This document shows positions 45,600 through 61,286 of a stretch of 64,000 bases of DNA, in pieces (the first letter of the stretch is position 1; the number at the start of each line of letters is the position of its first letter). Below the pieces are notes generated by a model. The model was not told where the DNA came from and ran no database searches. It was given only the letters and a program-made list of their open reading frames with translations. A program made the position numbers and the translations under genes. The DNA is from Rhodocaloribacter litoris. GTDB taxonomy: Bacteria > Bacteroidota > Rhodothermia > Rhodothermales > ISCAR-4553. The DNA is taken from positions 1,362,827-1,426,826 of the forward strand of contig NZ_CP076718.1 of NCBI RefSeq assembly GCF_011682235.2, written 5' to 3'.

Positions 45600-45921
45600 G
45601 GCGGTCTTCTTTCCGGAACGGCGGGAACCGTCCCGCTTCCTCAACGGAACGTAACCCGTACTGCGTACGTCGCAGGGCGTATTTCGTGCCGCGTGCGGCT
45701 CAGGCCCCACGCCCTACGCACCCTGTCAACGCAAACGGTTGTACGAGCCGGTCAAGATAGGGATTTGCCCTGTTCTGCTCACACCCGGCGCCGTGCAGAT
45801 TCTATAAAACGCACCGGGTTGCGTCCATACGCCGCCGCCGGTTTGCAGGTTCGCGCAACCCGAAAGGCCGGCGAGGGTTCAAGCCCCCGCCCCTTTCGCT
45901 TGCCTCTGGCCGGTCCTTCCC
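45600..45921. other. Intergenic region between divergent leuS and a CoA-binding gene
   Basis: No gene. At 45815-45823 CGGGTTGCG is complementary to CGCAACCCG at 45854-45862 (9-base stem, 30-base loop), possibly a structured leader of the plus-strand gene. No tRNA could be folded. Confidence 0.45.
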
Positions 45922-46341
45922 ATGATCGATCTGCAACAGACGCTCGCCACGGCCCGCACCATCGCGGTCGTGGGCTGCTCCGCCGACCCGCGCCGCACCA
46001 GCCACCGCATCGCCCGCTACCTCCAGCGCGCCGGGTACCGCATCCTTCCCGTCAACCCGAATTACGAGGAAGTCCTCGGCGAGCCCTGCTACCCCGACCT
46101 CCAGCACATCCCGAAGGAGACGCAGCTCGACATCGTCAACATCTTCCGCCGTTCCGCCCACACGGCGGACATGGTGCGGCAGGTCGTACAATGGCAGGCC
46201 GAGACGGGCCAGACACCGGTGGTGTGGACCCAGCTCGGCGTCTCCAGCCCCGAGGCCGAGCGCCTGGCCGCCGGGGCCGGCCTGCCCTACGTCCGCAACC
46301 GCTGCATCGCCGTAGAGCACCGGCGCCTGGTGGACGGCTGA
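45922..46341 (+). CDS. CoA-binding (YccU-like) Rossmann protein
   Basis: 139 residues. TIAVVGCSADPRRTSHRIARYL, GYRILPVNPNYEEVLGEPCYPDL, DIVNIFRRSAHTADMVRQVV and VWTQLGVSSPEAERLAAGAGL match the CoA_binding_2 family. It binds CoA or a nucleotide; the physiological role is unknown. It is the last core gene before the integron segment; the integrase remnant begins within about 20 bases of its stop. Confidence 0.88.
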   Translation: MIDLQQTLATARTIAVVGCSADPRRTSHRIARYLQRAGYRILPVNPNYEEVLGEPCYPDLQHIPKETQLDIVNIFRRSAHTADMVRQVVQWQAETGQTPVVWTQLGVSSPEAERLAAGAGLPYVRNRCIAVEHRRLVDG

Positions 46342-46359
46342 ACGGCGATGCAGGCGCGG

Positions 46360-46423
46360 TCGTCCCCAGCAGAGGCCACCAGCCGCACCTCGGCCAGAAA
46401 ACGCAGGTTTTTGCGCACGTTCA
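46360..46423 (-). pseudogene. Integron integrase remnant 1
   Basis: Minus-strand translation gives NVRKNLRFLAEVRLVASAGDD, matching HVREYLSFLTELRLLASAGD of the better copy at 49536-49775. The N-terminal half and promoter found in the other copy are missing here: the sequence jumps straight to the attI-like block at 46424. About 20 codons remain. Confidence 0.65.
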
Positions 46424-46535
46424 CCGAGAAGCAAGTGCTTGACTGTACGATGTTTTGCCGATAGATTAGACCGGTGATACAAGGCCATGGGGCGCGTTGT
46501 AACATGGCTCCTGGCAGGTTAATAACAGATTAGCC
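46424..46535 (+). other. attI-like recombination region, copy 1
   Basis: A 112-base block aligning without gaps to 49847-49958 (roughly 87% identical by hand count). It ends at ATTAGCC (46529-46535), in the place of a GTTRRRY core. Downstream of this point the two copies are unrelated, as expected where different cassettes were inserted. The block is next to an integrase remnant facing away, the normal integron head layout. Confidence 0.65.
46439..46467 (+). promoter_or_regulatory. Cassette promoter (Pc-like) in attI copy 1
   Basis: TTGACT (46439-46444), 17 bases, TAGATT (46462-46467), pointing into the cassettes. The same arrangement (TTGATT-N17-TAGATT) is kept in copy 2. Confidence 0.55.
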
Positions 46536-46884
46536 TGTTATGTAAGTTCAATCACACCACCCGCACGTAGAGAGGGATGAAACAGCATAATGGAGAGGTC
46601 TTCATTTAGAATCAAAGTGGAATCGTGGCTTGTCTCAGCAGGTCGTTCGTCCGAATCCGGTGCTCCCCTGAACGTACCACTCATTCCTGCTTCTAACTTC
46701 ATCCTGGGCAGCGGACGTGAATACGCCCGTGATGACGGCACGCCGACATGGGAAGCGTTGGAAGAAATCATCGGTGGGCTTGAAGGTGGCAAAGCCGTGG
46801 CCTTCGCCTCCGGCATGGCTGCGATTGCCGCCGTGTTTGATCAGCTTCCGGTCGGTGCTGTTGTGGTAATACCGGATGATTGTT

Positions 46885-47893
46885 AATGCGAATTAAGAGT
46901 TGACACCATGGTGTCCTGAGCGTTTAGAAGGAGATGACCCCTCACCTCCAACCAAACGCCCGAGGACCCCATGGACTGGCAATATACGCTCATTCATCTG
47001 TTCCTCCACGTCTGTGAGCAGTATCAGCGCCGCCTCTGCGTCGTTGCCCAGCGCCTGAGCAACAACCACGCGCCGGCCTTCTCCGATGAAGAAGTCCTCA
47101 CCGTCTACCTCTTCGGGCTCATGCAGCAGCGCCGCACGCTGACCGACATCTACGCCTACACCCGCGACCACCTGATGGCCTTCTTCCCCAAACTGCCCTC
47201 CTACGTCGCCTTCGTGCAGCGCCTCAACCGGCTGGCCGATGCCTTCCCCCTGCTGGTCGAAGCAGCCCTGGAGGCATGTCCGCGCCAGTCCTCTGGTGAG
47301 CGACCTGCAGAGCGCTCTGGTGAACCAACCGATTACATCATCGACTCTTTTCCGGTCGTGATGGCCCAGCAGAAGCGCTCGGCCTGGGCCAGGGTCGCTC
47401 CGCACATCGCCGGCAAAGGCTTCTGCGCCTCGAAGAACCTGTATTTCTACGGCGTCAAGGTACATGTCGTCGCACGGCGGCGTCCCGGCACGATGCCGCT
47501 GCCGCTCTACATCGGACTGGCTCCCGGCCCGGCCAATGACCTGACCGTGGCCCGACAGATCCTACCGCGCCTGCACGAGGGGCGTCTCTTTGCCGATAAG
47601 ATCTACGCCGACCGTGAGCTAGGCGAGCGCCTGGCAGCCGAGCAGAACCTGCACCTGTGCACGCCGGTGAAGAAGCGCAAGGGGCAGACCGATGTGCTGC
47701 TGACCGAGAAGGTGTACTCGCGGCGGGTCAGTCAGCGCCGGCAGCCGATCGAGTCGCTGTTCAATTGGATCGAGCAGAAGACGGGCATCGAGGTGGCCTC
47801 GAAGGTGCGTTCGTTCGAGGGCCTCTTGGTGCACGTCTTCGGGCGGCTAGCCGCGGCGATGTGGATCCTCGCGTTCTACCCTTAATTCGCATT
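46885..47893 (+). mobile_element. Complete IS of about 1009 bp (IS982-like) with 3-bp target duplication
   Basis: Ends carry the inverted repeat AATGCGAATTAAG (46885-46897; complement at 47881-47893). The target GTT is duplicated (46882-46884 and 47894-47896). Removing the IS plus one GTT restores the host gene. One transposase gene fills the element. Confidence 0.9.
46971..47885 (+). CDS. DDE transposase, IS982-like
   Basis: 304 residues. AFSDEEVLTVYLFGLMQQRR at the start, then the first catalytic Asp in YIIDSFPVVMAQQKR, KNLYFYGVKVHVVARRR, the second Asp in FADKIYADRELGERL and the Glu in RRQPIESLFNWIEQKTG. The layout (about 300 residues, IDSFPV and YFYGxKVH) matches IS982; a neighbouring IS4/IS5 group is the alternative. 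The stop lies within the right terminal repeat. Confidence 0.85.
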   Translation: MDWQYTLIHLFLHVCEQYQRRLCVVAQRLSNNHAPAFSDEEVLTVYLFGLMQQRRTLTDIYAYTRDHLMAFFPKLPSYVAFVQRLNRLADAFPLLVEAALEACPRQSSGERPAERSGEPTDYIIDSFPVVMAQQKRSAWARVAPHIAGKGFCASKNLYFYGVKVHVVARRRPGTMPLPLYIGLAPGPANDLTVARQILPRLHEGRLFADKIYADRELGERLAAEQNLHLCTPVKKRKGQTDVLLTEKVYSRRVSQRRQPIESLFNWIEQKTGIEVASKVRSFEGLLVHVFGRLAAAMWILAFYP

Positions 47894-48734
47894 GTTATCA
47901 AGGGGTTGCCGGTCTGGTGGCCAGGGGTGCAGAACGTGGGCGTTGGCATGTGCAGCGCGTGGCCGTGGACGACACAGCTGGATGGATACAGGCGTGTGCC
48001 GTTGCGGATCTGATCTGGCTCGAATCGCCCTCAAACCCCCTGTTAACCGTCGCAGATCTGGAAGCCATCTGCGCAGCACCGCGCAAGCGTGGGGCCATCG
48101 TGGCCGTTGACAATACCTTTGCCACGCCTTTGAATCAGCAGCCGCTCGACCTGGGTGCTACCCTGTCAGTCCAATCAGCGACCAAGTTTATAGGGGGGCA
48201 CTCCGACCTATTGGCAGGGGTTGTCACGACGAGATCGGATGCGCTCTGGCACGCGCTTAGGAAGTCTCGCGAGTTGAACGGCGCAACGCCAGGAACCCTC
48301 GAGGCCTTTCTCGCCATTCGTGGGGCGAGGACACTTGCGCTTCGCTTACAGCGGGCTCAGGAAACAGCCATGATACTTGCGGAACGCCTAGAGAAACACG
48401 CCCTCGTCGCTCGTGTCCGCTATCCGGGCTTACCGTCCCATCCGACACATGCGATTGCCAGGCGTGTGCTCAAGGGCTTTGGGACCATCATTTCATTCGA
48501 TTTGCGGGGAGGAGCAGAAATGGCGGATGCTGTCTGCAAGAACCTCAGGCTCATTCGCCACGCCACCAGTCTGGGAGCCGTGGAATCGACAATCGAACGA
48601 AGAGCGGCCATCCCGGGACAGGAACACTTGCCCCCTTCACTCTTGCGCCTCAGCGTTGGTATTGAAGACCCGGACGACCTGTGGACTGATCTCGACTCGG
48701 CCATACGCGCTGCTGCACGTTGACTCTGGCGACA

Positions 48735-48755
48735 GTTATACGGCGACAGTTATAC
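48735..48755 (+). repeat. Tandem GGCGACAGTTATAC unit containing two core-like GTTATAC
   Basis: The 14-base unit GGCGACAGTTATAC occurs twice just after the PLP-enzyme stop; each copy contains GTTATAC (48735-48741, 48749-48755), a match to GTTRRRY-type cores and identical to 56742-56748. Confidence 0.5.
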
Positions 48756-48782
48756 AATATCTAGAAGGCGATGTTGGATCCG

Positions 48783-48819
48783 GCCTAACGTCGCGTGCGG
48801 CTGACACTTACCATTAGGC
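48783..48819 (+). other. Degenerate or shortened attC site of the PLP-enzyme cassette
   Basis: GCCTAAC (R''-like, 48783-48789) and ATTAGGC (48813-48819) are almost perfect complements 37 bases apart, shorter than functional attC sites. ATTAGGC has A in place of the core G, as in attI copy 1. Confidence 0.45.
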
Positions 48820-48857
48820 CTCCTGTGGAACGCTTCTACCGTGTGCACATACGAAGC

Positions 48858-48875
48858 ACGTGTACACTACGTGTA
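48858..48875. promoter_or_regulatory. Direct repeat ACGTGTA x2 upstream of mazEF, candidate antitoxin operator
   Basis: ACGTGTA at 48858-48864 and 48869-48875, 11 bases apart (one helical turn), directly before the ribosome-binding site of the antitoxin gene. Position fits autoregulation. Confidence 0.4.
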
Positions 48876-48888
48876 GTGGAGGTGCGAC

Positions 48889-49119
48889 ATGCAGAAGAAG
48901 CTGACCATTACTATTGACGAGCAGGTTTACGAGGGACTCTACCGCGTCGTCGGCTCCGGGCGCATCAGCCAATTCATTGAGAAACTGGTTCGCCCCCATG
49001 TGCTTCCTCATGAACTTGAAAACGCCTATGCTCAAATGGCGCAGGATGGTGAGCGCGAAGCAGAGGCGCTTGACTGGTCGGAAGCCCTGATTTCGGATAC
49101 GGACGATGAGACGCGGTGA
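48889..49119 (+). CDS. mazE: MazE-like antitoxin
   Basis: 76 residues ([20 protein letters not shown]…[18 protein letters not shown]). The short N-part, [13 protein letters not shown] followed by a helix, is of the ribbon-helix-helix antitoxin type; the C-terminal part is acidic and toxin-binding ([15 protein letters not shown]). GGAGG precedes the start. It overlaps the toxin gene by 14 bases, so the two are translationally coupled. It is in the second cassette of integron copy 1. Confidence 0.8.
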
Positions 49120-49429
49120 GATCTGGTGGGTTAACTTCGATCCGTCGGTTGGCGGCGGGATTCGAAAGAAGCGGCCGGCCATCATTGTGAGCAATGATGC
49201 CGCAAACAAGTTCTTGAATCGCGTTCAGGTTGTGCCGCTGACGTCGAATACGGGGCGACTCTATCCAAGTGAGGCGTATGTGACGGTTGGAAGTCGAACC
49301 AGCAAAGCGATGGCGGACCAACTGACGACAGCAAGCAAGCAACGTCTGCTGAGCAAGGTGGGGGAGGTCGCGCCTTCAGAGCTTGAAGCGGTGGAGCGTG
49401 CTATACGGATCCAACTCGATCTACACTAG
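49106..49429 (+). CDS. mazF: MazF/PemK-family mRNA interferase toxin
   Basis: 107 residues. [31 protein letters not shown] is the classical MazF start (RGEIWWVxFDP … G … KxRPAxIVS); [31 protein letters not shown] complete the fold, including the conserved D-Q. A complete length. It cleaves mRNA when the antitoxin is lost and so can stabilise cassette arrays. The stop is 18 bases before the R'' box of the attC. Confidence 0.92.
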
Positions 49430-49446
49430 GCGCGTGCGGGAAGGAG

Positions 49447-49541
49447 TCCTAACAACGCGTTCCGTCGGACGTCATGCGGGGCGACGTTTTCGCTCGCGAA
49501 CGCATCGCCTGCGGCCCGCATGCCGCCGCTGACCGTTATTC
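49447..49541 (+). other. attC site of the mazEF cassette
   Basis: R'' box TCCTAAC (49447-49453) and core GTTATTC (49535-49541). Between them a long imperfect stem is visible: CATGCGGG with CCCGCATG and GGCGACG..TTCGC with GCGAACGCATCGCC. The cassette head after the previous core is TTAGGC, whose expected R'' partner GCCTAAC matches the actual box at 6 of 7 positions. Confidence 0.7.
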
Positions 49542-49775
49542 GGCCCGGTTCCGCTCAGCAGCGTCCCCCGCGGAGGCCAGCAGCCGCAGTTCAGTCAGAA
49601 AACTCAGGTATTCGCGCACATGTGAAGCCCCGAGCTGTGCCGGATGACGCTTGCCGTGAAAGTAGATAAACCGTTTGATCCACTGGATACAGGCTCGTTC
49701 CGTGCTTATACTGTAGTGCCGGGTCCGGCAGACGGACCGAACCTGATCGAGCAACCGGGGCGAAGACGGGTTCAT
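49536..49775 (-). pseudogene. intI: Integron integrase (IntI) N-terminal remnant 2
   Basis: 79 residues. LLDQVRSVCRTRHYSISTER, ACIQWIKRFIYFHGKRHPAQ and ASHVREYLSFLTEL match the N-terminal core-binding (SAM-like) domain of integron tyrosine recombinases (compare the IntI pattern LRYLHYSLRTEQAYVNWV and FHGVRHPATLG). The catalytic domain with the R-H-R-Y residues is absent: the frame stops inside the attC core GTTATTC. It is oriented away from the attI copy, as in true integrons. It keeps a strong promoter. Confidence 0.8.
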
Positions 49776-49810
49776 GGTGCTTCATGGCAATATGTGTAAT
49801 ATATATTGGT

Positions 49811-49840
49811 ATTATATAGCCCGTGGCGGTATATTGTCAA
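49811..49840 (-). promoter_or_regulatory. Integrase promoter P-int (TTGACA-N18-TATAAT)
   Basis: On the minus strand a consensus TTGACA (49835-49840) and consensus TATAAT (49811-49816) with an 18-base spacer, 36 bases before the intI start. A TATATA two bases earlier would give N16. No LexA-type CTGT-N8-ACAG box is visible. Confidence 0.75.
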
Positions 49841-49846
49841 GCAGGA

Positions 49847-49958
49847 CCGAGAGGTAAGTGCTTGATTGTAGGATGCTTTGTCGATAGATTAGACCGGTGA
49901 TACAAGGCCACGGGGCGCGTTGTAACACGGCCCATGGCGGGTTAATAATAGGTTAAGC
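49847..49958 (+). other. attI-like recombination region, copy 2
   Basis: Gap-free homologue of 46424-46535, ending in the perfect core GTTAAGC (49952-49958). It lies between the intI remnant with its promoter and the next cassette gene, which starts 19 bases after the core. Confidence 0.7.
49862..49890 (+). promoter_or_regulatory. Cassette promoter (Pc-like) in attI copy 2
   Basis: TTGATT (49862-49867), 17 bases, TAGATT (49885-49890), directed into the cassette array. The spacing is conserved with copy 1. Confidence 0.5.
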
Positions 49959-49977
49959 ATCAATAGAGACTGTCTAA

Positions 49978-50583
49978 GTGCCTGAACTCATCAAAGATAT
50001 TCTCGCGCTAATAGTGACGCCGGCGGTGCTAGTTGCCCTAGGAGCCTACATGCTGCGGCAATTCTTTGAGCAAGCACTCAAACGCGATATCGAATCATAT
50101 AAAGCAAACTTGAGCAAAGAGAACGATCTTGCAAAGGCCCGGCTAGAGACTGAACTAAAGGCGCAACTCTTCGAGCATCAGTCTCGATTCAGTCATCTTT
50201 CTCAGAAACAAGCCGAAGTAATTGGAGAGACGTTTAGCCTATTGGTAGATGCCGAAGAAGCCCTGAAGGTAATTGCCGAGGAGGAGGTGTATTCGGAGGG
50301 TTATAATGAAGCTGTTGAACGAGTTAAGGCGTTCACCACTTTCTCTTGCAAAAACGAGATCTACTTTTCGGATCCCATTATCGAGGGCGTTAAAAACATC
50401 CGAAAAGCGTTTTTTGGTAGTGTCAACCGGATGAACATTGGGAAGCAGGCCGGGGGGGAATGGGAGTTAGAGTGCATGCAAAAAGCTTTAGAAATTGCGT
50501 TTATTGAAATCCCGAAACTAAAAGCTGAATTGAGAGGTCTTTTTAGAACATATATTTCCGCCTCGAGGCCAGGGGATGCTTAG
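49978..50583 (+). CDS. Cassette-encoded membrane/coiled-coil protein of unknown function
   Basis: 201 residues, GTG start at 49978. One N-terminal hydrophobic helix (LALIVTPAVLVALGAYMLRQF, about 9-29), then a charged coiled-coil region (SYKANLSKENDLAKARLETE, about 40-90) and a helical C-part. Visibly more A/T-rich than the core genes, typical for integron cassettes. The stop codon TAG is part of the R'' box of its attC. Family not recognised. Confidence 0.75.
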   Translation: MPELIKDILALIVTPAVLVALGAYMLRQFFEQALKRDIESYKANLSKENDLAKARLETELKAQLFEHQSRFSHLSQKQAEVIGETFSLLVDAEEALKVIAEEEVYSEGYNEAVERVKAFTTFSCKNEIYFSDPIIEGVKNIRKAFFGSVNRMNIGKQAGGEWELECMQKALEIAFIEIPKLKAELRGLFRTYISASRPGDA

Positions 50584-50705
50584 CCCCAGTTTGCAAGCGA
50601 CAAAGGGCGTTTCGACATTTTCTGCGGTATTGCCCCGCGCCCAGGTTTTGCTTACCCTTACTGGAGAGCCAAGCAGCCTTTGCGCTTGAAACCTGACCGT
50701 TGGGC
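50578..50705 (+). other. attC site, 128 bases
   Basis: R'' GCTTAGC (50578-50584) and R' core GTTGGGC (50699-50705). The inner arms GTTTgCAAGCGaCAAAGG (from about 50590) and CCTTTGCGCTTGAAAC (from about 50678) are perfectly complementary except for two extrahelical bases (lower case) on one side, the classic attC strand-choice signature. R'' is one base from GCTTAAC, the complement of this cassette's own head G|TTAAGC. Confidence 0.85.
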
Positions 50706-50775
50706 GGCCTCGATTGTCGCAACGACGCGACGGTAGGAATTGACACCAACCATCAAGCAAGAAAGGGGACCCAGT

Positions 50776-51045
50776 ATGGCTGTAGCGATTAGTGCAGATG
50801 TTCCGGGTCAGACCAAGGAAGGATATGAGGAAACAATCCGGCTTCTTGGGGATGCCCTTAAGGGGGCTCCGGGCTTCATTATGCACTTCGGCCACCCGAT
50901 TGAAGGCGGTTGGCGTGTCGTAGAAGTCTGGGAGTCGTCGAAAGATGCCGCGGACTGGTTCGCGAAGCATGTTCGCCCCAACCTGCCTCCTGACGTCAAG
51001 CCACAGCGCCACACCCATGAGCTCCACACACTCATCCGTAGGTGA
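50776..51045 (+). CDS. Cassette-encoded dimeric alpha-beta barrel (ABM-like) protein
   Basis: 89 residues from ATG 50776 with GAAAGGGGA upstream. VAISADVPGQTKEGYEETIR, GAPGFIMHFGHPIEGGWRVV and VWESSKDAADWFAKHVRPNL are typical of small antibiotic-biosynthesis-monooxygenase-like (ferredoxin-fold) proteins. No catalytic motif stands out, and the role is unknown. The gene occupies a complete cassette from 50700 to 51157. Confidence 0.75.
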   Translation: MAVAISADVPGQTKEGYEETIRLLGDALKGAPGFIMHFGHPIEGGWRVVEVWESSKDAADWFAKHVRPNLPPDVKPQRHTHELHTLIRR

Positions 51046-51101
51046 TTGAGCGAAAGCGAATTGGCGTGCCATCATCACAACGCCATCTTGGAGTGACGTC
51101 C

Positions 51102-51163
51102 GCCCAACAACCGGTTGCAGCGGACGGCGCGAAGCGCGCCGCCGCTGAACCGAAGCGTTATGC
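51102..51163 (+). other. attC site, 62 bases
   Basis: R'' GCCCAAC (51102-51108), arms GGTTgCAGCGGaCGGCGCG and CGCGCCGCCGCTGAACC pairing with two extrahelical bases (lower case), a 3-base loop, and core GTTATGC (51157-51163). R'' is the exact complement of GTTGGGC, this cassette's own head, which proves the cassette boundaries 50700-51157. Confidence 0.92.
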
Positions 51164-51185
51164 GCCTTTAAAAATCCTGAAGGCC

Positions 51186-53720
51186 ATGAGCGTAGTTTCA
51201 ACAGACAGGGATAGGCCTATGCGAATCGTTGGGTATGAGCCCCATAATGTGCGTACCTCACAAAGGTTTTCACCTTTAGTGACCCGGTTCTTGGTTATAT
51301 TTTTCCTGGGGTCACTTTGCCTGGTCCCTTGTGCGGCCTCTCAAATACAACCCCTCCGCGGCGCGGAGCAAAAAGTCTTCTCTACTACTTCAGGCTGGAG
51401 TGACCAGTTCGCGCTGCCCGGCCCGAACTTTGACGTTACCGCGCTTACTTCCAATGAAGATGCCGTCTTTGTCGCTGGGGCGTTCTCTCATATCGGGAAA
51501 CATCCTGTCCAGAGCCTGGCCCGCTGGGATCGTGCAACCCAGACCTGGGAAGAAATGGGCGGAGGGCTCAGCCTGGCAAACGGCGAGGGGCTCATCCAGG
51601 CACTTGCTGTCGGAGAAGCCGGGGAACTCTATGTCGCCGGGACCTTTGCTGAACCTGGGGGAGATTTTTTCTCAAAAGTGGCTGTTTGGAACGGCGAGTC
51701 CTGGCACGTACTCGGGGGATCGCTGGATCCCGGCTCCGTGTCTGACTTGCTCTTCCACAACGGCGTTTTGTACGCCAGTGGGGCTATCCCGGGCGCAAAC
51801 GGGACGTTCGAGGGGGTAGTACAGTGGGACGGCAATGCCTGGCTTCCCCTGGGCGAAGGAACGAGCGGTACGGCGGCAAGCCTAGCCGTCGACGCGGAAG
51901 GGAGCATCTATGCGGGAGGCGCTTTCTTACCCGAGGAAAATGTTGTCTATGGGGTGGGACGCTGGGATGGAAGCGCCTGGTCTTTTCTCGATAGCCGGAT
52001 CGAGGGCGGCATCCAACCCGGTCCACTCGTTTCCTCTTTGTCCATCTGGGGTGATCAACTCTATGTCGCCGGCCACTTTGACACCATAGGAGGTATCAAC
52101 AGTAATAGCGTAGCCCGGTGGGATGGACAGGAATGGCATGCGCTAGAGATGTCTCAGTTCGTCTTTCTCCCTGAGATTGCTGTGCTCTCTTCGGGGCAGA
52201 TCTACCTCGGAAGCGGATTTACATTATATGCATGGGATGGGCAGGCCTGGTCTGATCCCGGTCTCTCTCTTCCGTTTGAGATCCAGCTTCTGGAGCAAGA
52301 CGGCGATGAGCTTTTCATCGGGGGCGTGAGTGTCTTCGGTGACCTTGTTCCTCCTGCCTCCGTGCACCTCTACCGGTATGACGGTAGCGAACTTAATGTT
52401 TTTCATACGGAAGGAGCCTACGGCATCACCGGTCAGATCCATGTTCTGGCTGCGGATGACGAATATGTCTATGCAGGCGGGGAATTCAATTTTGCCGGTC
52501 TGGTGCCCGGTCAAAACATAGCCCGCTGGGATGGGATGCAGTGGACCGCGCTGGGCGCCGGGCTCGACGATGCGGTGCTTGCCCTGACTCTCGATGCCAC
52601 AGGCTCCCTTTACGCAGGCGGGCGCTTTACACGGTCCGGCGCCACGGAGGTCCACCATGTAGCCGTCTGGGATGGGGCACAGTGGCAACCCCTGGGCGGC
52701 GGCGTAGACGGACCCGTCAATGCGTTGCTCGTCGCCGGCGATGACCTCTACGTCGGCGGGTATTTCGACACCGCCACCGATGCCAATGGAACCGTACCCG
52801 TCCAAAACCTGGCCCGCTGGGATGGCACGCAGTGGCACGAAGTCGGGGGCGGGGTGGAAGGCAAAGTCAACAGCCTTACGCTCGGCGATGACGGCATCCT
52901 CTACGCCGGCGGCAGCTTCGAAGAACAGGGAGGGCTCCTCACGCGACATGGCGTCCGGGCCTGGGATGGGGTGCAGTGGACCCCGCTGGGGAACGATTTT
53001 GGGGGACCGGTCTGGACCGTCGCCTGGCATGGAGGCACGCTTTACGCCGGCGGCAACTTCATCGAATCGCTGGGGGATCCGGGCAACGGCATCGTGCGCT
53101 GGGATGGCCAGCGCTGGCAGGGGATGGGAGCAGGCACACAAGGTCCCAACGTCGATGTCGAAGCCATCGCCTTCAGCGATCGCGGTGATCTCTACGCCAC
53201 CGGCTGGTTCGCCGGGGCCGGCGAAAGCTCCGCCCCCCTTGTGGCCCGCTGGGATGGCACGCAGTGGCACCCGCTCGACGGTGGACTTTATGGCACCTAC
53301 GGGCTGGCTCTGGCCATCGAAGGGCGGGAGGTGTACGTAGGGGGCGCCTTTCTCTCAGCCGCAGCCCCGCTCTTCTCCGGCGGCATTCCGGCGGGAAACT
53401 TCGCCCGGTGGACGATGCCCATCGACCTTCCCATCGAAGAAGAGGGGCAGCCTCCCACTTCACTCGAACTACACCAGAACTACCCCAACCCCTTTAGCGG
53501 ACGAACAACGATTTCCTACGTCTTGTCCCGTCCGTCCCGCGTCGAGCTGGTGGTCTACGACGTGTTAGGACGGGGGGTGGCGACGCTGGTGGATGCATGG
53601 CAGGCGGCGGGTAAGCACACCGTGGTCTTCGACGTGCGGCAGTTGCCCGGTGGGGTGTACTTCTGCCGGCTCTCGACGGACCATGGGGTCGAGACGCGTA
53701 GCATGACGGTGCTTCGCTAG
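51186..53720 (+). CDS. Large T9SS-secreted beta-propeller (WD/kelch-like repeat) protein
   Basis: 844 residues from ATG 51186, 23 bases after the attC core, with GAAGG upstream (ATG 51219 is possible). The N-terminal signal peptide contains TRFLVIFFLGSLCLVP. More than ten repeats follow of the form ARWDG.QW..LGGGV…V.ALxxxxxxLYVGGxF (for example NLARWDGTQWHEVGGGVEG; GILYAGGSFEEQGG). It ends with a type A T9SS domain (LHQNYPNPFSGRTTISY, VYDVLGRGVATL, CRLSTDHGVETRSM). It is probably a surface or released adhesive or sensor protein. It is unusually long for an integron cassette. Confidence 0.85.
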   Translation: MSVVSTDRDRPMRIVGYEPHNVRTSQRFSPLVTRFLVIFFLGSLCLVPCAASQIQPLRGAEQKVFSTTSGWSDQFALPGPNFDVTALTSNEDAVFVAGAFSHIGKHPVQSLARWDRATQTWEEMGGGLSLANGEGLIQALAVGEAGELYVAGTFAEPGGDFFSKVAVWNGESWHVLGGSLDPGSVSDLLFHNGVLYASGAIPGANGTFEGVVQWDGNAWLPLGEGTSGTAASLAVDAEGSIYAGGAFLPEENVVYGVGRWDGSAWSFLDSRIEGGIQPGPLVSSLSIWGDQLYVAGHFDTIGGINSNSVARWDGQEWHALEMSQFVFLPEIAVLSSGQIYLGSGFTLYAWDGQAWSDPGLSLPFEIQLLEQDGDELFIGGVSVFGDLVPPASVHLYRYDGSELNVFHTEGAYGITGQIHVLAADDEYVYAGGEFNFAGLVPGQNIARWDGMQWTALGAGLDDAVLALTLDATGSLYAGGRFTRSGATEVHHVAVWDGAQWQPLGGGVDGPVNALLVAGDDLYVGGYFDTATDANGTVPVQNLARWDGTQWHEVGGGVEGKVNSLTLGDDGILYAGGSFEEQGGLLTRHGVRAWDGVQWTPLGNDFGGPVWTVAWHGGTLYAGGNFIESLGDPGNGIVRWDGQRWQGMGAGTQGPNVDVEAIAFSDRGDLYATGWFAGAGESSAPLVARWDGTQWHPLDGGLYGTYGLALAIEGREVYVGGAFLSAAAPLFSGGIPAGNFARWTMPIDLPIEEEGQPPTSLELHQNYPNPFSGRTTISYVLSRPSRVELVVYDVLGRGVATLVDAWQAAGKHTVVFDVRQLPGGVYFCRLSTDHGVETRSMTVLR

Positions 53721-53951
53721 CCGATGCTGGCCGGCGGGAGACGCGTACGGCGATTTCACATCGCCGATCATTTCGCTAACGAAACCGAAATGGAGCCTAT
53801 GTAGCATCACGAGACCATGAAGAAGCCTCTGCGGCGTAATTCTTCGCAGGCAAGACCTCCGGCCAAGAGTCTCTTGCCAGGGAAAGACTGCCGGCAGAGG
53901 CTTCAAATACCCCCAAGGCACGATTCCATCAAACACCCAGGAGGCCAAACT
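53721..53951 (+). other. Structured leader between the two T9SS genes
   Basis: No gene. GAAGCCTCTGC (53821-53831) is the exact complement of GCAGAGGCTTC (53891-53901); inside, GGCAAGA and TCTTGCC form a second stem. Together they could make a two-tier hairpin of about 80 bases in the leader of the protease gene. A CAGGAGGCC ribosome-binding site follows before ATG 53952. No attC cores were found here. Confidence 0.5.
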
Positions 53952-56192
53952 ATGACGCTGCAACGATCTCAAATGTTCACCTGCGCGCTGGCGCTTTGCG
54001 CCGGCTTCACCCTGGCGAGCCCCGATTTCTTGCTGGCTCAACTTCGAAAACTGGAAGAACCCAACCGGGTAACCCAGGCGGCCATCTACGTGGATGAAGC
54101 TGGTATCGAACACGCCACCGTCATCAATGTCCGCTTCACCGATCAAGTCTTCTTTTCAGACCAGAAAGCCAGTTTAACCAGAGCAGAACTGAACCCGCTT
54201 CACACCTCAGTCATCAATGCATTGTTCGACAGATTGGAACAGCGCTATGGTTCATTCGGCATCGAAAAGTTGTACCCCTGGGCGCGTTGGGGGGACAACC
54301 AGCGCATCAATAAACGTACCGGCAAGGTCGTTACGATTCCGGACTTCTCGCAAGTATATGTTCTCCGCTTTGCATCGCCGGTCCCCATCGACGAGGTGGC
54401 CGAGACACTCTCCAGGCACGATCTTGTATCCTATGCGGAAGGTCCCGAAGTGGGATATATGCTCGACCAATCATCCCTTGAGATACCGGATCTTTTTCAA
54501 GAAGCAGCCTTCGAAGCCGCGATGATTCCCTTCGTGGTTTCGCCAAACGATTATCAATACAATCGATTCTTGCAAACGGGCCTTGCCTCTGAGGGCCAAT
54601 GGGGTCTCAGTCAGGTGAACGCGGAGGCAGCATGGGATATCTCGAAAGGGGACGGGATTACTATCGCGGTCACAGAAGACTGGAAGACCTCAAACTGTTT
54701 CACGACACCCCATCCTGACCTGAGCGGACGGCTCGACAACAGCGCCGTCAATAATTGCTTTCAAAATAGCTCCTCGACCTGGCACGGGACAGCCAGTGCC
54801 GGTATCGCCGGAGCGATTACGAACAATACCAATTGGAACGCCAGTCTGGGATGGAATGTCAGCTTGAAGGGATATACGTGGGGGTCAACAGGCATAACTG
54901 CTGCTGCCAATGACCCATCAGTAGACATCATTAATGCCAGTTGGAGAAGTGGCAATACCTGTAATTTAAAGATAGCAGTCCACACAGCCCTCTCTTCAGG
55001 CAAGCTCATCGTAGCCGGGAATGGAAACGGCCCTTCCACCGGCTTTAATCCGCCAGTTGTTACCTATCCTTCCGGATTTGACTTCCGCTCAGACCAATAT
55101 TGTGGATCCACATTCCTACCGAGCCTGGGTGATACACAGGTGATGGCTGTTGCTGCTTCTGATACGCTCGATCTCCACCTGGACTACTGCGTTAATAATT
55201 ACCCTGACTCCTGCCCGTATAACTACAGCCCTGGCACGGATCCGGTAAATAATCCGACACAAGCCTTCATGGATGTGGCGGCACCGGGTATTCTAACCTG
55301 GGTGCTTTATGTTAATGCCGATGGTAGCCCCAACGGGGTTAGACGTACAGGCACCTCCTTCGCCGCACCGATGGTCAGTGCCCTCGCCGCACTCATCCTG
55401 GCTACCGACAACACGCTGACGCCCCAACAACTCTACGAGGTGATCATCCGGGCCACTGATAAAGTCGGCCAACATACCTACTCCTATATCGGATTACTCG
55501 AACAATCGTGGAACCAGTACTTCGGCTACGGGCGCATCGATGCCTATCACGCGCTCCTGGTGGCCACGCAGAACCCGCTCCCGCTGATCGCCGGACCGTC
55601 CACGCTCGGGGTCTGGGAATACGGCACGTGGACCGCCGACCCGCAGTACGGCATCACCCCCTTCCAGTACGACTGGTACTACCGCTACTGTGGCGAGACG
55701 CCGTATGGGCCCACGCAGGGACCCGAGCCGGACTGCGAACCCTGGGTCTATGCCGGCAGCGGGGCGTCCCTGACGCGCAGAGACCTCGTAGACTTCGAGT
55801 TGAAGGTCGTCGTAACCGATGACAAGGGCAAGACGGGCGAGTCCACCAAATATGTATATGTGGGGGGAAGCGCTCCGTCAAAGCAAGCCACAGCCGAGGC
55901 GGCACCCCGGACCGCAGCGGCGATGCCGGTGGCGTACGCGCTGTTGCCGAATTACCCGAACCCGTTCAATCCCCAGACCGAGATTCGCTTTGCCCTACCG
56001 GAGGAAAGCGCCGTGGAGCTGGTGGTCTACGATGTGATGGGGCGGGAGGTGGCCCGCCTGGTGGATGGGGTGATGCCATCGGGTTATCACCGTGTCGGCT
56101 TCGACGCCGGGGATCTGCCTTCGGGGTTGTACGTGTATCGTCTGCGAGCAGGGGGCTTTGCAGAGGCGCGGCATATGGTGCTGGTGCGGTGA
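53952..56192 (+). CDS. T9SS-secreted subtilisin-like (S8) serine protease
   Basis: 746 residues from ATG 53952. A signal peptide (CALALCAGFTLASPDFLLAQ), a propeptide-like region (about 25-210), then a subtilase domain: QVNAEAAWDISKGDGITIAV, the His in STWHGTASAGIAGAI, and the Ser in RRTGTSFAAPMVSALAALIL. The usual Asp in a VIDTG motif is replaced by AVTEDWKT, so the acid is shifted by one or absent. A PKD-like domain and a type A T9SS domain follow (YPNPFNPQTEIRF, VYDVMGREVARLV). Extracellular proteolysis is expected if the triad is intact. It is cotranscribed in the same cassette-like unit as the propeller protein. Confidence 0.88.
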   Translation: MTLQRSQMFTCALALCAGFTLASPDFLLAQLRKLEEPNRVTQAAIYVDEAGIEHATVINVRFTDQVFFSDQKASLTRAELNPLHTSVINALFDRLEQRYGSFGIEKLYPWARWGDNQRINKRTGKVVTIPDFSQVYVLRFASPVPIDEVAETLSRHDLVSYAEGPEVGYMLDQSSLEIPDLFQEAAFEAAMIPFVVSPNDYQYNRFLQTGLASEGQWGLSQVNAEAAWDISKGDGITIAVTEDWKTSNCFTTPHPDLSGRLDNSAVNNCFQNSSSTWHGTASAGIAGAITNNTNWNASLGWNVSLKGYTWGSTGITAAANDPSVDIINASWRSGNTCNLKIAVHTALSSGKLIVAGNGNGPSTGFNPPVVTYPSGFDFRSDQYCGSTFLPSLGDTQVMAVAASDTLDLHLDYCVNNYPDSCPYNYSPGTDPVNNPTQAFMDVAAPGILTWVLYVNADGSPNGVRRTGTSFAAPMVSALAALILATDNTLTPQQLYEVIIRATDKVGQHTYSYIGLLEQSWNQYFGYGRIDAYHALLVATQNPLPLIAGPSTLGVWEYGTWTADPQYGITPFQYDWYYRYCGETPYGPTQGPEPDCEPWVYAGSGASLTRRDLVDFELKVVVTDDKGKTGESTKYVYVGGSAPSKQATAEAAPRTAAAMPVAYALLPNYPNPFNPQTEIRFALPEESAVELVVYDVMGREVARLVDGVMPSGYHRVGFDAGDLPSGLYVYRLRAGGFAEARHMVLVR

Positions 56193-56800
56193 AGCGGCAC
56201 ATAACGCCTTTATGGCCTCCCTTTGTCAAGGGCAAAATCGTCCGTAGCCGAAAAAGGCAGCTGCTTCGGTTACCCTCTGGCTCTCAGGCACCCATCTACT
56301 CGTCGCTGCGTGTGTCTTGTCTGTGTGGTTTCGCACCCGTCTGGGGCGCCGTACCCAACACCTTTCGAGGGTCAATGAAGCAAGGGCTGAGGAACTGCCG
56401 CAGCCTCGTCCAGCTCGGCTCCCGCCAAGCGCCGCTAGAAGACATCACGTTCGCTGATACGGTCGGCATCTTGTCGTGCGTGCTCACCGAGCGACCGGAC
56501 GGCAAATCCCGGCCGGTCACCCCGTCTCCCGTTATTCGGCCCGTTTCCGCTCAGCAGCGTCGCCGCCGATGGCTGTCGGAGCAGCCACAGTCATACTCCC
56601 TGGGGGGAGTGAATAGGACGGGCCGGTCGTGCTGTCCAATCAAGCGCAGGAGGGTCAGCCCTGGCGAGCCGGATCGCTTGCCTAGCAGCACCGTGCGCTT
56701 CCCATGAGGCTTCAGATCCCTACGGCTCAGGTCCGCCACTCGTTATACGCCGAGCTCAGCACGCGGCCCGGTGGCTATCGGTCGTTCATGATGCTGTCTG
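56193..56800. other. 608-base region with attC fragments and hairpins, no gene
   Basis: ACATAAC (56199-56205), 7 bases after the protease stop, is one base from GCATAAC, the R'' expected for a cassette headed TTATGC. GTTATTC (56531-56537) is followed by about 30 bases matching the integrase remnant region at 49535. GTGCTG..CAAGCG (56629-56646) pairs with CGCTTG..CAGCAC (56675-56691). GTTATAC (56742-56748) is another core-like word. The region looks like several collapsed cassettes. Confidence 0.5.
56531..56568 (+). pseudogene. Third integrase-junction fragment
   Basis: GTTATTCGGCCCG followed by TTCCGCTCAGCAGCGTC repeats the junction at 49535-49570 with one or two changes. Only about 35 bases are shared, so it is a relic. 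Confidence 0.5.
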
Positions 56801-57859
56801 TCAGGCCGTTTGTAGGAACGTCTGTTCGTCGAAGTACTGACCGCGCCGCAGCATGTAGTAGAGACTGCGGCCGAGCTTGTGACTGAGGATGCCCAGCGCC
56901 TTGCCCTTGCCGTGCTTCTGCGTCATGCGCTCGACGTAGCCCTTGACGGCCTTCGACTCGCGCATCAGGACGAGGGCCGCCTCGCTGAAAGCCCACTTCA
57001 GGTGGCCGTTACCGATCTGCTTGAACGAGGGCAAACCGGCCGCCTTCCCGGCCGAGGTCTTTGTCGGACGAATGAGCCGGGCATAGGAGCAGAACTGCTG
57101 ATGCGAGTCGAAGCGCGTCACGTCGTCAATCTCGTAGAGGAAGATGAGCGCCAGCACCTGGCCGACGCCGGGAATCGAACGCAACAGGTCGTAGGTGCGG
57201 CGGTCGTCGATGCGGGCCTGCTGCTCGAGTTGGCGCTCCAGTTTCCGGATAAGCCGGTCATAGTGCGCGATCAGGTCGAGGTCGGCCTCGACCGAGGCGC
57301 GGACCTGCGGATCGTCGAAGGCGGCTACCACCTCGTCGCGGCAGGTTGTCACTGAGCGGTTGGCCAGGCGGCGCCCGAAGGATTCGAGGCGGTACTGCCA
57401 AGAGGTGTTCTGTACGTGCGCCAGCCGTTCGGCGCGTTTGCGGACGAAGTGGGTGCGACGGCGAAGCAGGTCCCGCGTAGCCCGCTTCTCTTTGGGATAG
57501 ACGTGCGCCAGCGGGAAGGTGCCCCCGCGCAAGAGCCGGGCGATGGTGTGCGCATCCTGACGGTCGTTCTTGGTCTTACCGCCGTGGACAGCCTTCATGT
57601 AGAGGGCGTGCCCGAGGACAAAGGCGATGCCCTCGCGCTCGCAGAGATCGGCTAACCAATACCAGGTGAAGATGCACTCGCAGCCGACGACGAGTTCCTC
57701 ACGGAAGGGCGTGATGGCCTTGAGGAAGCTCTTGGGGTTGGCCAGCGTGTTGCGCTCGAGGAGAACGGTGCCCGTGGCGTCGAGCACGCAGACGAACATG
57801 GTCTTGGTGTGTAGATCGACGCCGGCGTAGTGCGTATGTTGGCCGTCGTAGAATCTCAT
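56801..57859 (-). CDS. IS110-family DEDD transposase
   Basis: 352 residues. The N-terminal RuvC-like domain has YAGVDLHTKTMFVCVLD, CECIFTWYWLADLCERE and GGKTKNDRQDAHTIARLLRG. The C-terminal Tnp_2 domain has LLRSIPGVGQVLALIFLYEI, RPTKTSAGKAAGLPSFKQIG and NGHLKWAFSEAALVL, including the Ser nucleophile region. Full length. The AGGAGGA ribosome-binding site is complementary to TCCTCCTG 48 bases upstream, so translation may be restrained by a hairpin. Confidence 0.93.
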   Translation of the reverse strand: MRFYDGQHTHYAGVDLHTKTMFVCVLDATGTVLLERNTLANPKSFLKAITPFREELVVGCECIFTWYWLADLCEREGIAFVLGHALYMKAVHGGKTKNDRQDAHTIARLLRGGTFPLAHVYPKEKRATRDLLRRRTHFVRKRAERLAHVQNTSWQYRLESFGRRLANRSVTTCRDEVVAAFDDPQVRASVEADLDLIAHYDRLIRKLERQLEQQARIDDRRTYDLLRSIPGVGQVLALIFLYEIDDVTRFDSHQQFCSYARLIRPTKTSAGKAAGLPSFKQIGNGHLKWAFSEAALVLMRESKAVKGYVERMTQKHGKGKALGILSHKLGRSLYYMLRRGQYFDEQTFLQTA

Positions 57860-58020
57860 GGCAGATCCTCCTGGGGTCTGGTTTTGTGGAAGTGAAGCGC
57901 TACAAAGTAGGCTTCAGGAGGAGGCCATGATTAATATCCAGCGCATCAACGCGGTCGCAGGGGCGCTCGGCGTTTTCCGGTGCGTAGTTGCATCGCTTCA
58001 CCGGCACCGATAGGCTTCAC
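57860..58020 (-). ncRNA. Candidate structured leader or bridge RNA of the IS110-type element
   Basis: Non-coding DNA upstream of the transposase, bounded by the subterminal repeat. CAGGAGGA (before the transposase start) and TCCTCCTG form an 8-base stem. IS110-family elements encode a bridge RNA in such end regions, but no comparison was possible here. Confidence 0.35.
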
Positions 58021-58089
58021 CGTTGAACCATGAGGCCCTTTGCCGCTGACCGGCGGGCCGTTATGCAGCAGAATTTCATTTAAAAAGTA

Positions 58090-58305
58090 ATGATATATCG
58101 GTTCCTTGAAATTGCTGCTCTTGGAGCAACTGTATTGGCCGGGATATGGTTTTGGAAAGAACCAGGCTTTGAACCTGCGATTACCTTTCTCAGCGGCCTT
58201 GCTACATTTATTGGATTAAAGCCCGTAACCGCCGTCGCCGCCCCCTTGCCCGCGCAGCCATCGTGCAGGGATGAGACCGTTGTGCAGTCGCCGCCGATAG
58301 GCTAG
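58090..58305 (+). CDS. Small membrane protein, last integron cassette
   Basis: 71 residues (MIYRFLEIAALGATVLAGIW…). It starts 24 bases after the core GTTATGC (58060-58066), the spacing typical of cassette genes. One or two hydrophobic helices (about 5-22 and 29-45), then a tail (QPSCRDETVVQSPPIG) that reads into the converging TonB receptor gene, overlapping it by 4 bases. The tail may be a junction artefact. Similar tiny membrane proteins are common in cassette arrays; function unknown. Confidence 0.55.
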   Translation: MIYRFLEIAALGATVLAGIWFWKEPGFEPAITFLSGLATFIGLKPVTAVAAPLPAQPSCRDETVVQSPPIG

Positions 58306-61286
58306 AACACGTACCGCAGGCCGAACTGGAACTGGCGCGGGGGGCTGGCATTGCGGCGCACGAGCACGCCCGAGTCGGCCGGACCGACCTGGATCTGGTT
58401 GCTCTGCGTGGCATTGTTCGAGTACCCGCTCAGGTTCTCCGCGTTGAAGACATTGAACACGTCGGCGCGGAACTCGAGGTGACCGCCACGGACGGGCAGG
58501 CGGTACTGGAGGCCCACGTCGAACGTGTTCGACCACGGCAGGCGGTCGCTGTTACGGCCCTCGCCGGGCTGGCGGTCGCTGTTGCCCACGTAGGCATCGC
58601 CAAAGGAGCGGCCGTCGCCGTTGAGGTCGGTGGTGCCGAAGCGCGTGGCATCCGGGATGCGGTTGATGGGCTGGCCGCTCTGCAGCAGCGCCGCCACGCT
58701 GAGCCCCAGGTTGCGGACGGGGTAGTAGTAGAAGATGGCGTTGATGACGTGCGTCCGGTCGTTGATGGACGGCCCCCACTCGGCCTCGAAGTCGTTGGCG
58801 TCCATCGCCCGGAAGTTGATGTCCTCGGTGTTGTTGCGCAGGCGGGAGAGCGTGTACGAGAGGCGGTAGGCGTAGTCGTCGCCGCTCCGATCCTTGAGCA
58901 GGTTGAAGCTCGCCGCCCAGTAGCGGGCCTCGCCGGCCGTCTCGGTCATGACGATGTTGCGGGCGCCGCCGGGCACGGGGCCGACGGGCCGGGTGGCGTC
59001 GGCCTCGGCGGGCGTGCGCACGAGCGCCCGGAGTTCGTCCGGCGTCTTGCCCTCGATGTCGGCCCGGGTGAGGCGGTAGGGCGCCGGTGCATTCAGGTTA
59101 CGCAGGCGAAACAGGTTGTACGACCGCGTGTGCATCAGGTCCACGTAAAAGAGGCGGTCCGGGCCGAGCTGGAGCTGGTAGCCCAGCGAGAACTGATGCG
59201 TGTACGGGTTGTCGTAGCCGTCCGGGTTGAGGATCCGGCGCTCGTTGCTGAAAACGTCCTCGCGACGGGCCCGCACCTCCTCCGGCGTCGGGCCGCCCAG
59301 GTAGGGCACGCCCTGGAAATCGGCCGTCAGGTTGCCCTCGAAGGTGACGCGGTCGAGGTCGGTGTGCGAAGGCAACAGACCCAGGTCGATGAGCCGGCGT
59401 AGCTGCTGCTTGAAACCCTCGGCCGTGGAGTTCTGCTGGAGCGCATCGCTGTAGATAGCATAGACGATCTTGTCATAGAAGATGCCGTAGCCGCCGCGCA
59501 GCGCGCTCCGCTCGTCGAGCTTGTAGTTGAAGCTGAAGCGCGGGGCCAGGTTGTTCCAGTCGCCGGTGGTGCCGCCGCCCTTCGAGAGGTTGTCGTAGTC
59601 GTAGCGCAGGCCGAAGGTCAGGTTGAGCCGGTCGCTGGCCGAGACGAGGTCCTCGACGTAGAAGCTCCAGATGTTCTGCCGCGCCCCGAACGCCTTCGGG
59701 CGTAGCTCGACGCTGTAGTTGAGCACCTCGGGGTTGAGCGGGGCCAGGTCCTCCGGACGCAGGCCCGCCCCCGGATTCATCGCCCGGAGCTGGTCGAGCT
59801 GGGCCTGCGTCAGCTTGACGGTGTAGTTGCCGTTCGGGTTGCCGCCGCCGGTGAGGGAAAAGTCGGACGAGACGAGCTCGGCGCCGAGTTTGAAGGTGTG
59901 GTTGCCGCGTGTGGCCGTGAGCTTCTGCTGGAGCTGGAACGTGTTCTCGAGGTCGTCGAACAGGAAGCCGGGATGTCCGAGGACGGCCACGGACAGTTCC
60001 TGCGGGTCGAGGACGGACACCTGCGGCCCGTCGCTCGCGCGGGCGTAGTTCCACCGAAAGCGGCTGTACTGGAGGTTCGTCTCGGCCACGAAGCCATCGC
60101 CCGTGTACGTGTTCATCAGCGCCACGAGGACGCTGTTGCGGTCCTGCGTGTTGGCGGCCGAGGGGAACGTGGTGCCACCTTCGAGGCCACCGCCCTGCCG
60201 CTCGATCTGCACCAGCCCCACGTTGGCCCGCACGGTCGAGCGAAGACGGTCGCTCCAGCGGTGATCGACCCGCGCCGACGCGTACGTGAAGTGGTTCTGT
60301 CCCTCGACCGTCTCGGTGAGGCCGAGCTGGGGCACCCGCAGCAGGTTGTCCTTGAAGTCGGTCGTGTGCTCGACGTTGACGAAGAAGAACGTCCGGTCGC
60401 GGCGGATCGGCCCCCCGAAGGCCACACCTCCCTGCTGGCGCATGAAGCCGTCCTTGACCGGGTTGCCCGAGAGGTCGCGCTGGGCGAAGCGGTAGGCCCC
60501 GTCGAGGGCCGGCCCCGGGCGCATCAGGTAGAAGGCTTCGCCGGAGAAGCGGTTGCTGCCCGACTTCGTGGTGATGTTGAACACCCCGTTGCCCGTCCGG
60601 CCGAACTCGGTCGAATAGTTGTTCGTGAGCACGGTGATGTCCTGCACGAACCCCGTCGGGACGGCGAATTTCTGCCCGCCGAGGAAGTTCTCGTTGTTGT
60701 CCATCCCGTCGACCATGTAGTTGACGTAGAGCGAGTTGGCGCCGTTGACGCTCACGTTGGGCGCCTCGGGGAAGAAACCGGTCGCCTGCGTCACGTTCGG
60801 GAGGCGGTAGAGCACGCGCGTCACGTCGCGCCCTTCGACGGGGAGCAGTTCCACCTCCTGCTCGCGCAGCGTGGCCCCCACCTCGGCGTTGACGGTGTTG
60901 ATCTCGGCAAAGCTCGTCTGCGCCGTGACGGTCACCTCGCCGAGTTCGACGGTGCGCACGGGCACCAGTAGCAGGATGATGCTCCGCGTATAGTTGGCAC
61001 GGAGGCGGAGGTCGTCGGCGCGGGCCTCGTGGTAGGCCTCCGTCTCGGGCACGAACACGTCGTACAGGCCGGCGGTGGTCACGGCGGGAAAGCGCACCTT
61101 GCCCTGGGCGTTCGTGACGGCCGTCTCGCCATACCCGATGACTTCGTTCTCCAGGTACACCGTCACGCCCGGCACCGGCGCCCGGGTGTCGAAATGGAGG
61201 ACGGTCACTTCGAGCCCGGCCTGCGCATACGCACCGCCGGCCAGCATCAGACCCAGCAACAGGGAAAAGAAGCGTACGGAAAGCAT
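58302..61286 (-). CDS. Oar-like TonB-dependent receptor
   Basis: 994 residues from ATG 61286 (MLSVRFFSLLLGLMLAGGAY). A carboxypeptidase-regulatory-like domain (about 23-95), an alpha/beta linker, a plug (VLYRLPNVTQATGFFPEAPN; VNYMVDGMDNNENF; GNGVFNITTKSGSNRFSGEA) and a large barrel with a C-terminal Phe (FQFGLRYVF). The NITTKSGSNRFSGEAFY pattern is typical of Oar-type receptors, which export or bind proteases and adhesion factors in myxobacteria and relatives. The ligand is unknown, and it is not near a SusD gene. Confidence 0.88.
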   Translation of the reverse strand: MLSVRFFSLLLGLMLAGGAYAQAGLEVTVLHFDTRAPVPGVTVYLENEVIGYGETAVTNAQGKVRFPAVTTAGLYDVFVPETEAYHEARADDLRLRANYTRSIILLLVPVRTVELGEVTVTAQTSFAEINTVNAEVGATLREQEVELLPVEGRDVTRVLYRLPNVTQATGFFPEAPNVSVNGANSLYVNYMVDGMDNNENFLGGQKFAVPTGFVQDITVLTNNYSTEFGRTGNGVFNITTKSGSNRFSGEAFYLMRPGPALDGAYRFAQRDLSGNPVKDGFMRQQGGVAFGGPIRRDRTFFFVNVEHTTDFKDNLLRVPQLGLTETVEGQNHFTYASARVDHRWSDRLRSTVRANVGLVQIERQGGGLEGGTTFPSAANTQDRNSVLVALMNTYTGDGFVAETNLQYSRFRWNYARASDGPQVSVLDPQELSVAVLGHPGFLFDDLENTFQLQQKLTATRGNHTFKLGAELVSSDFSLTGGGNPNGNYTVKLTQAQLDQLRAMNPGAGLRPEDLAPLNPEVLNYSVELRPKAFGARQNIWSFYVEDLVSASDRLNLTFGLRYDYDNLSKGGGTTGDWNNLAPRFSFNYKLDERSALRGGYGIFYDKIVYAIYSDALQQNSTAEGFKQQLRRLIDLGLLPSHTDLDRVTFEGNLTADFQGVPYLGGPTPEEVRARREDVFSNERRILNPDGYDNPYTHQFSLGYQLQLGPDRLFYVDLMHTRSYNLFRLRNLNAPAPYRLTRADIEGKTPDELRALVRTPAEADATRPVGPVPGGARNIVMTETAGEARYWAASFNLLKDRSGDDYAYRLSYTLSRLRNNTEDINFRAMDANDFEAEWGPSINDRTHVINAIFYYYPVRNLGLSVAALLQSGQPINRIPDATRFGTTDLNGDGRSFGDAYVGNSDRQPGEGRNSDRLPWSNTFDVGLQYRLPVRGGHLEFRADVFNVFNAENLSGYSNNATQSNQIQVGPADSGVLVRRNASPPRQFQFGLRYVF

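Follow-up and report, generated by a model that had tools for sequence, protein, structure and literature searches.

A probable two-gene integron cassette for type IX-secreted proteins in a truncated chromosomal integron of Rhodocaloribacter litoris

Introduction

Integron cassettes are commonly viewed as short, single-gene units that are mostly of unknown function. Complete integrons have been reported to be rare in the Bacteroidetes, one example being that of Salinibacter ruber (PMC9024848), and surveys of cassettes have found signal peptides in 11-14% of ORFs and a signal peptide or a transmembrane segment in about a third (PMC10963911). With synthetic cassettes, excision has been measured for inserts to about 3 kb, and it drops for very large cassettes if one site folds poorly (PMC5371416). 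The attC sites can also be targets of transposition, as IS1111-family elements are known that insert at one end of attC (PMC11187229). Our literature search, with most subscription papers beyond its reach, returned no published link between the type IX secretion system (T9SS) and integron cassettes.

Here we analyse an integron array located within a 64-kb window (the whole stretch of DNA under study) of the 4.5-Mb genome of Rhodocaloribacter litoris. An initial annotation, made from the sequence alone, had proposed that this window holds a single cassette, roughly 5 kb long, in which two genes encode T9SS-exported proteins.

Materials and methods

A strict GTTRRRY scan for attC overlooked most sites of this lineage and was replaced by relaxed scans and by a covariance model, which was built from 19 attC sites of this genome and its relatives and contains 22 pairs. 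For the structure of attC, RNAalifold predicted 19 pairs, 12 of which covary (changes on both sides). The model overlooks certain genuine short attC sites (L079:7765-7835 and L118 at about 928-1002), so the absence of an attC between genes was judged from the model scan and a search for GTT together. As a measure of cassette boundaries, the 12-base head was compared with the reverse complement of the tail; over 152 cassettes of the order the mean agreement was 10.4, against 7.5 for shuffled pairs. The sequence following the R'' box of cassette 3 was used in a pattern search of 114 genomes of the order.

Results

The region holds an integron array of the sedentary chromosomal kind that is truncated here, its attI lying beside a fragment of the integron integrase gene intI (Table 1). 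An intact intI is found at 3.198 Mb of the same genome, next to a near-identical attI, and the stretch 49530-49965 shares 92% DNA identity with that intI/attI region and has several further genomic matches. Alignment of the attI copies across the genome indicated a common attI with a terminal core GTTAAGC, GTTAGGC or GTTATAC, and the position of this core in the window sets the beginning of the array at 49953.

To the left, an older attI copy heads an older array, in which a disrupted gene for a PLP enzyme and a toxin-antitoxin pair of the PemK/MazF type are found. The former, a Cys/Met-metabolism PLP enzyme gene (46590-48723) that is apparently the first cassette behind this attI, is interrupted by a DDE-type insertion sequence (IS; 46893-47885) with six more near-identical copies in the genome; copies at G000:C1:342403-344069 and 2113187-2114350 lie no more than a few hundred bases from T9SS tail sequences. 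The toxin and its small upstream partner (48889-49429) precede the weak attC of this array and are cassette-like. Tandem truncated integrons, in which an array is followed by a piece of intI with attI and then by a further array, occur both in this genome (window, 46360-49960) and in that of a species from a different family, G008 (L079:177-6970). A sequence of 36-45 bp starting CCGTTATTC is present at 49533-49577, at the joint of the weak attC and the intI fragment, and again at 56529-56573, in the non-coding part of the IS110/IS1111-type element described below.

Table 1. Features of the integron region, in window coordinates
Feature	Position	Strand	Remarks
Second, older attI copy (left)	46423-46532	+	88% identity to 49846-49955; also matches the genome's other attI copies
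Weak attC at end of left array	49450-49541	+	R' GTTATTC; covariance model R1, 16.0 bits, E 0.0032 unfiltered
Integron integrase gene, N-terminal fragment	49587-49754	-	residues 1-56 of TIGR02249
attI	49846-49958	+	core GTTAAGC at 49952-49958; aligned with attI copies of same genome
Cassette 1	49953-50699	+	ORF 49978-50583; attC 50578-50705, 33.7 bits; head/tail 9/12
Cassette 2	50700-51157	+	ORF 50776-51045; attC 51102-51163, 43.8 bits; head/tail 10/12
Cassette 2 attC	51102-51163	+	fold z -4.2; core G/TTATGC opens cassette 3
Cassette 3	51158-58060	+	5' core 51157-51163, R'' 56199-56205, R' 58060-58066; contains inserted IS
Beta-propeller protein (Rax2-like)	51186-53720	+	844 aa; type A T9SS sorting domain
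Intergenic stretch	53721-53951		231 bp; strong hairpin at about 53822-53903
Subtilase (S8)	53952-56192	+	746 aa; type A T9SS sorting domain
R'' box of cassette 3 attC	56199-56205	+	ACATAAC; 7 bases past protease stop
IS110/IS1111-type element	56206-57937		inside attC, immediately past R''
Inverted 9-mers of IS (subterminal)	56212-56220 / 57920-57928		ATGGCCTCC / GGAGGCCAT
IS110 family transposase	56801-57859	-	352 aa; NF033542, 194.8 bits; PF01548 and PF02371
attC remainder past IS	57938-58066	+	R' GTTATGC 58060-58066; model match 57932-58066, 19.7 bits, E 0.0003 unfiltered
Further cassette start or integron flank	58061-58305	+	71-aa ORF, 58090-58305

An unfiltered scan of 45800-58400 with the covariance model returned the four attC matches of Table 1 (43.8, 33.7, 19.7 and 16.0 bits), the rest being noise; no attC was found downstream of the 71-aa ORF. 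Cassette 3, which is about 5.17 kb long without its IS, opens where the initial annotation had placed it, as the core GTTATGC at 51157 is the 3' end of the 43.8-bit attC. The box ACATAAC that had been noted behind the protease stop is likewise real, and an identical R'' box occurs in an uninterrupted attC of a species from the same family. Nine of the 10 bases of this box with its flank (GGCACATAAC) agree with the reverse complement of the cassette head (GTTATGCGCC); from 51171 to the window end no other match to the head complement has one mismatch or fewer, about 0.4 such matches being expected by chance, so that the resemblance may be taken as supportive, not decisive. Over 12 bases the head and tail of cassette 3 agree at 9, and agreement of at least 9 is reached by 27% of shuffled pairs.

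The proposed cassette end at 56205 had to be given up. An IS110/IS1111-type element splits the attC at this point, and because it sits exactly behind R'' the remainder of the site had been overlooked; the cassette continues to 58060. The joined flanks of the IS align over their full length with six intact attC sites from this genome, from a species of the same family (G001) and from G008, and R'', L'', L' and R' are all present, but the site is split and folds poorly (joined z -1.0). The sequence following R'' was found in 2 of the 114 genomes, twice in this genome and twice in G008. One G008 copy comes after cassette 2 of a truncated integron, where the R'' box GCATAAC is the exact complement of the head GTTATGC; in the other, GTATAAC is followed by the shared segment, an IS110 transposase and an attC remainder ending GTTGGGC, a layout from which it follows that the shared segment is the end of an IS110/IS1111-type element inserting into attC just past R''. 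The right-hand joint in the window, with the IS ending at 57937 and attC resuming directly, is the same as in G008. The element shares with the IS1111-attC group an IS110-type DEDD transposase, subterminal inverted repeats and, in the window as in G008, an insertion in attC after R''. 

Other identities for the segment behind R'' were also considered. As a second half-attC, or as a shared 3' conserved segment of the integron, it is ruled out by the G008 copy with an attC remainder beyond the transposase, and a group II intron was dropped as the Rfam scan of the window gave no match. At L055:13339-13375 (0.589 Mb) no more than 37 bp of this IS end lie behind the end of a cassette, probably the relic of an attC-targeted insertion.

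As an alternative reading, the array could end at the attC at 51102-51163, with ordinary chromosome as its right flank and ACATAAC as a coincidence, a reading to which the weakness of the third attC (19.7 bits) and the abundance of large secreted T9SS genes in this genome (69 tags) would lend themselves. It leaves the attC remainder with its R' box and the attC-specific position of the IS without a place, however, and the same IS joint follows an R'' box at three further loci, of which two are the final positions in other integron arrays and one has a head/tail match of 9/9; moreover, two more arrays of R. litoris have T9SS genes flanked by attC sites. We regard an array end at 51163 as very improbable, and the alignment of the joined flanks with intact attC sites largely refutes it.

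In our reading of that alignment the 5' half of the joined attC is like one attC subtype and the 3' half like another. The attC of cassette 3 is, judged by its sequence, decayed or chimeric, and given its poor fold, the 19.7-bit remainder and the halves of differing subtype, the loss of a neighbouring cassette or decay of the site may lie behind the mismatch. Since the site is in this state and is also split by the IS, the present copy of cassette 3 is probably immobile.

That no site lies between the propeller and protease genes, as first proposed, was borne out: the unfiltered model scan has no entry within 53700-53960, and the intergenic stretch contains no GTT on the + strand, which makes an attC there impossible in either orientation. 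A decayed attC may still be hidden inside the genes themselves, as the model overlooks short sites. The intergenic stretch does contain a strong hairpin (z -5.0), which has neither attC boxes nor a T run. It might be the relic of an attC that was deleted or decayed past recognition, in which case cassette 3 would be two fused single-gene cassettes, one with the propeller and one with the subtilase; the differing G+C contents of the two genes (61% and 57%, respectively) could then reflect differing origins, and a single-gene T9SS cassette does exist in this genome. Against such a fusion, which we consider unlikely, stand the lack of AAC/GTT boxes in the hairpin, of a + strand GTT in the gap and of any model match, as well as the well-bounded two-gene T9SS cassettes that R. 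litoris and related species have. One cassette of about 5 kb holding both genes, as the initial annotation suggested, is the best reading, because att-type cores lie at both ends, no attC separates the genes and comparable T9SS cassettes, bounded by recognised sites, are found elsewhere in this genome and in two relatives.

Both encoded proteins carry the T9SS tags that had been noticed. With the NCBIfam model TIGR04183 the tails of the propeller and the subtilase score 38.9 and 30.5 bits, respectively, and both pass the cut-off of 23; with Pfam PF18962 they reach 33.6 and 24.9 bits, the latter below the cut-off of 27. Each protein has an apparent signal sequence, and for the type IX translocon of the host the component SprA was detected in the genome with 2030 bits. 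The subtilase has its His and Ser motifs; its Asp motif reads AVTEDW, compared with AVIDTG in solved relatives, and with so unusual a motif its catalytic activity is uncertain. A collection of 84,980 species held no close relative of the subtilase, the one distant match sharing 24%, and no close homologue of cassette 3 was found in 40 relatives or in a scan of genome contigs.

Several cassettes of R. litoris and its relatives have T9SS cargo, cassette 3 among them. Half of the delimited cassettes of the genome (5 of 10) carry such cargo, and one T9SS cassette is found in each of G001 and G008. A T9SS tail precedes 7 of 22 attC sites in these three genomes and 0 of 172 elsewhere in the order (194 sites in all), as judged with a tail model built from sequences of this same order. 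The genome has 69 Por_Secre_tail matches in all; its cassettes, with 26 kb of sequence, contain seven of them where 0.4 would be expected (P 2e-7), and the enrichment persists when the window is left out (5 tags observed, 0.27 expected, P 9e-6), both P values assuming independence. In the integron with the intact intI at 3.198 Mb, cassettes 3 and 4, which are broken by IS elements, encode T9SS proteins, one of them an M43-like protease and two others that likewise bear the tag. The array at 2.595 Mb begins with a cassette for a T9SS-tagged propeller-type protein and a second ORF (head/tail 12/12), followed by one with a single T9SS-tagged protein, the stop codon of which is 6 bp upstream of attC. 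The G001 cassette (L118:997-3727) combines a tagged trypsin-like protein with a lipoprotein-like ORF, and its head and tail show 9 consecutive matches before the first difference.

Cassette 4 of the 3.198-Mb integron, which holds two genes with T9SS cargo in roughly 4.4 kb, provides direct evidence of movement as a unit. It is also present in G008 at 88-99% identity, directly after attI there and after an attC in this genome; the sequences of the two genomes switch exactly at G/TTATGCGCCTG (core G/TT), and the two copies carry different inserted ISs. The check originally suggested, whether two such genes move together, is thus positive for this sister cassette across two families; for the window's cassette, with no close homologue in the relatives, movement would be assumed by analogy. 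Between L054:14071-14205 and L079:6184-6318 the shared cassette is similar just up to the R'' box and the attC bodies beyond differ, that of G008 resembling a different attC in R. litoris (L054:8525-8658); attC bodies appear to undergo exchange. As excision tests reached about 3 kb, a 5-kb cassette is outside the tested range and may nevertheless be excisable.

Discussion

Taken as a whole, our data make it likely that cassette 3 is a two-gene T9SS cassette, one of several, that was acquired as one circle. IntI would have integrated the circular cassette by recombining the cassette's attC with the array, and the host's own type IX system, to judge from the tags and SprA, would export both proteins. 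The insertion of an attC-targeting IS110/IS1111-type element behind R'' afterwards split the site.

Some cassettes of this lineage are several kb long, hold two genes and carry a phylum-specific export signal, and one was exchanged between families with base-exact boundaries. This gives a likely function for cassettes of Bacteroidota-type integrons; in R. litoris the integron seems to be a platform on which secreted proteins are traded in ready-to-export form. It also suggests a limit on cassette exchange, since cargo with a T9SS sorting domain is useful only to hosts that possess the system. We put forward more tentatively, as a possibility, that the integrons of this lineage are specialised in exchanging parts of the secreted and surface proteome, with large cassettes, often of two genes, that encode T9SS-tagged proteases and propellers passing from family to family as whole units ready for export; if so, integrase activity could alter what the cell displays or secretes. 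Elements that target attC can, in addition, conceal large cassettes from attC finders, because a site split by an IS goes undetected.

In its attI, its attC sites with R'', L'', L' and R', the single orientation of its cassettes and an intact intI elsewhere in the genome, the array resembles the cassettes of known sedentary chromosomal integrons, from which cassette 3 differs in its two genes, its length of about 5 kb (the median of the order being about 0.67 kb over 140 cassettes) and its cargo with T9SS sorting domains. Compared with the secreted or membrane proteins of surveyed cassettes, this cargo adds a second, phylum-specific signal, the C-terminal T9SS sorting domain. The IS shares with the IS1111-attC elements ISKpn4 and ISPst6 an IS110/IS1111-type transposase, subterminal inverted repeats, a long non-coding stretch and insertion at one attC end (PMC11187229), and differs from them in its host lineage. 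The two proteins themselves are like other type A T9SS cargo in their TIGR04183/PF18962 tail, apparent signal sequence and protease or beta-propeller body, but differ in being encoded in integron cassettes, not at fixed chromosomal loci.
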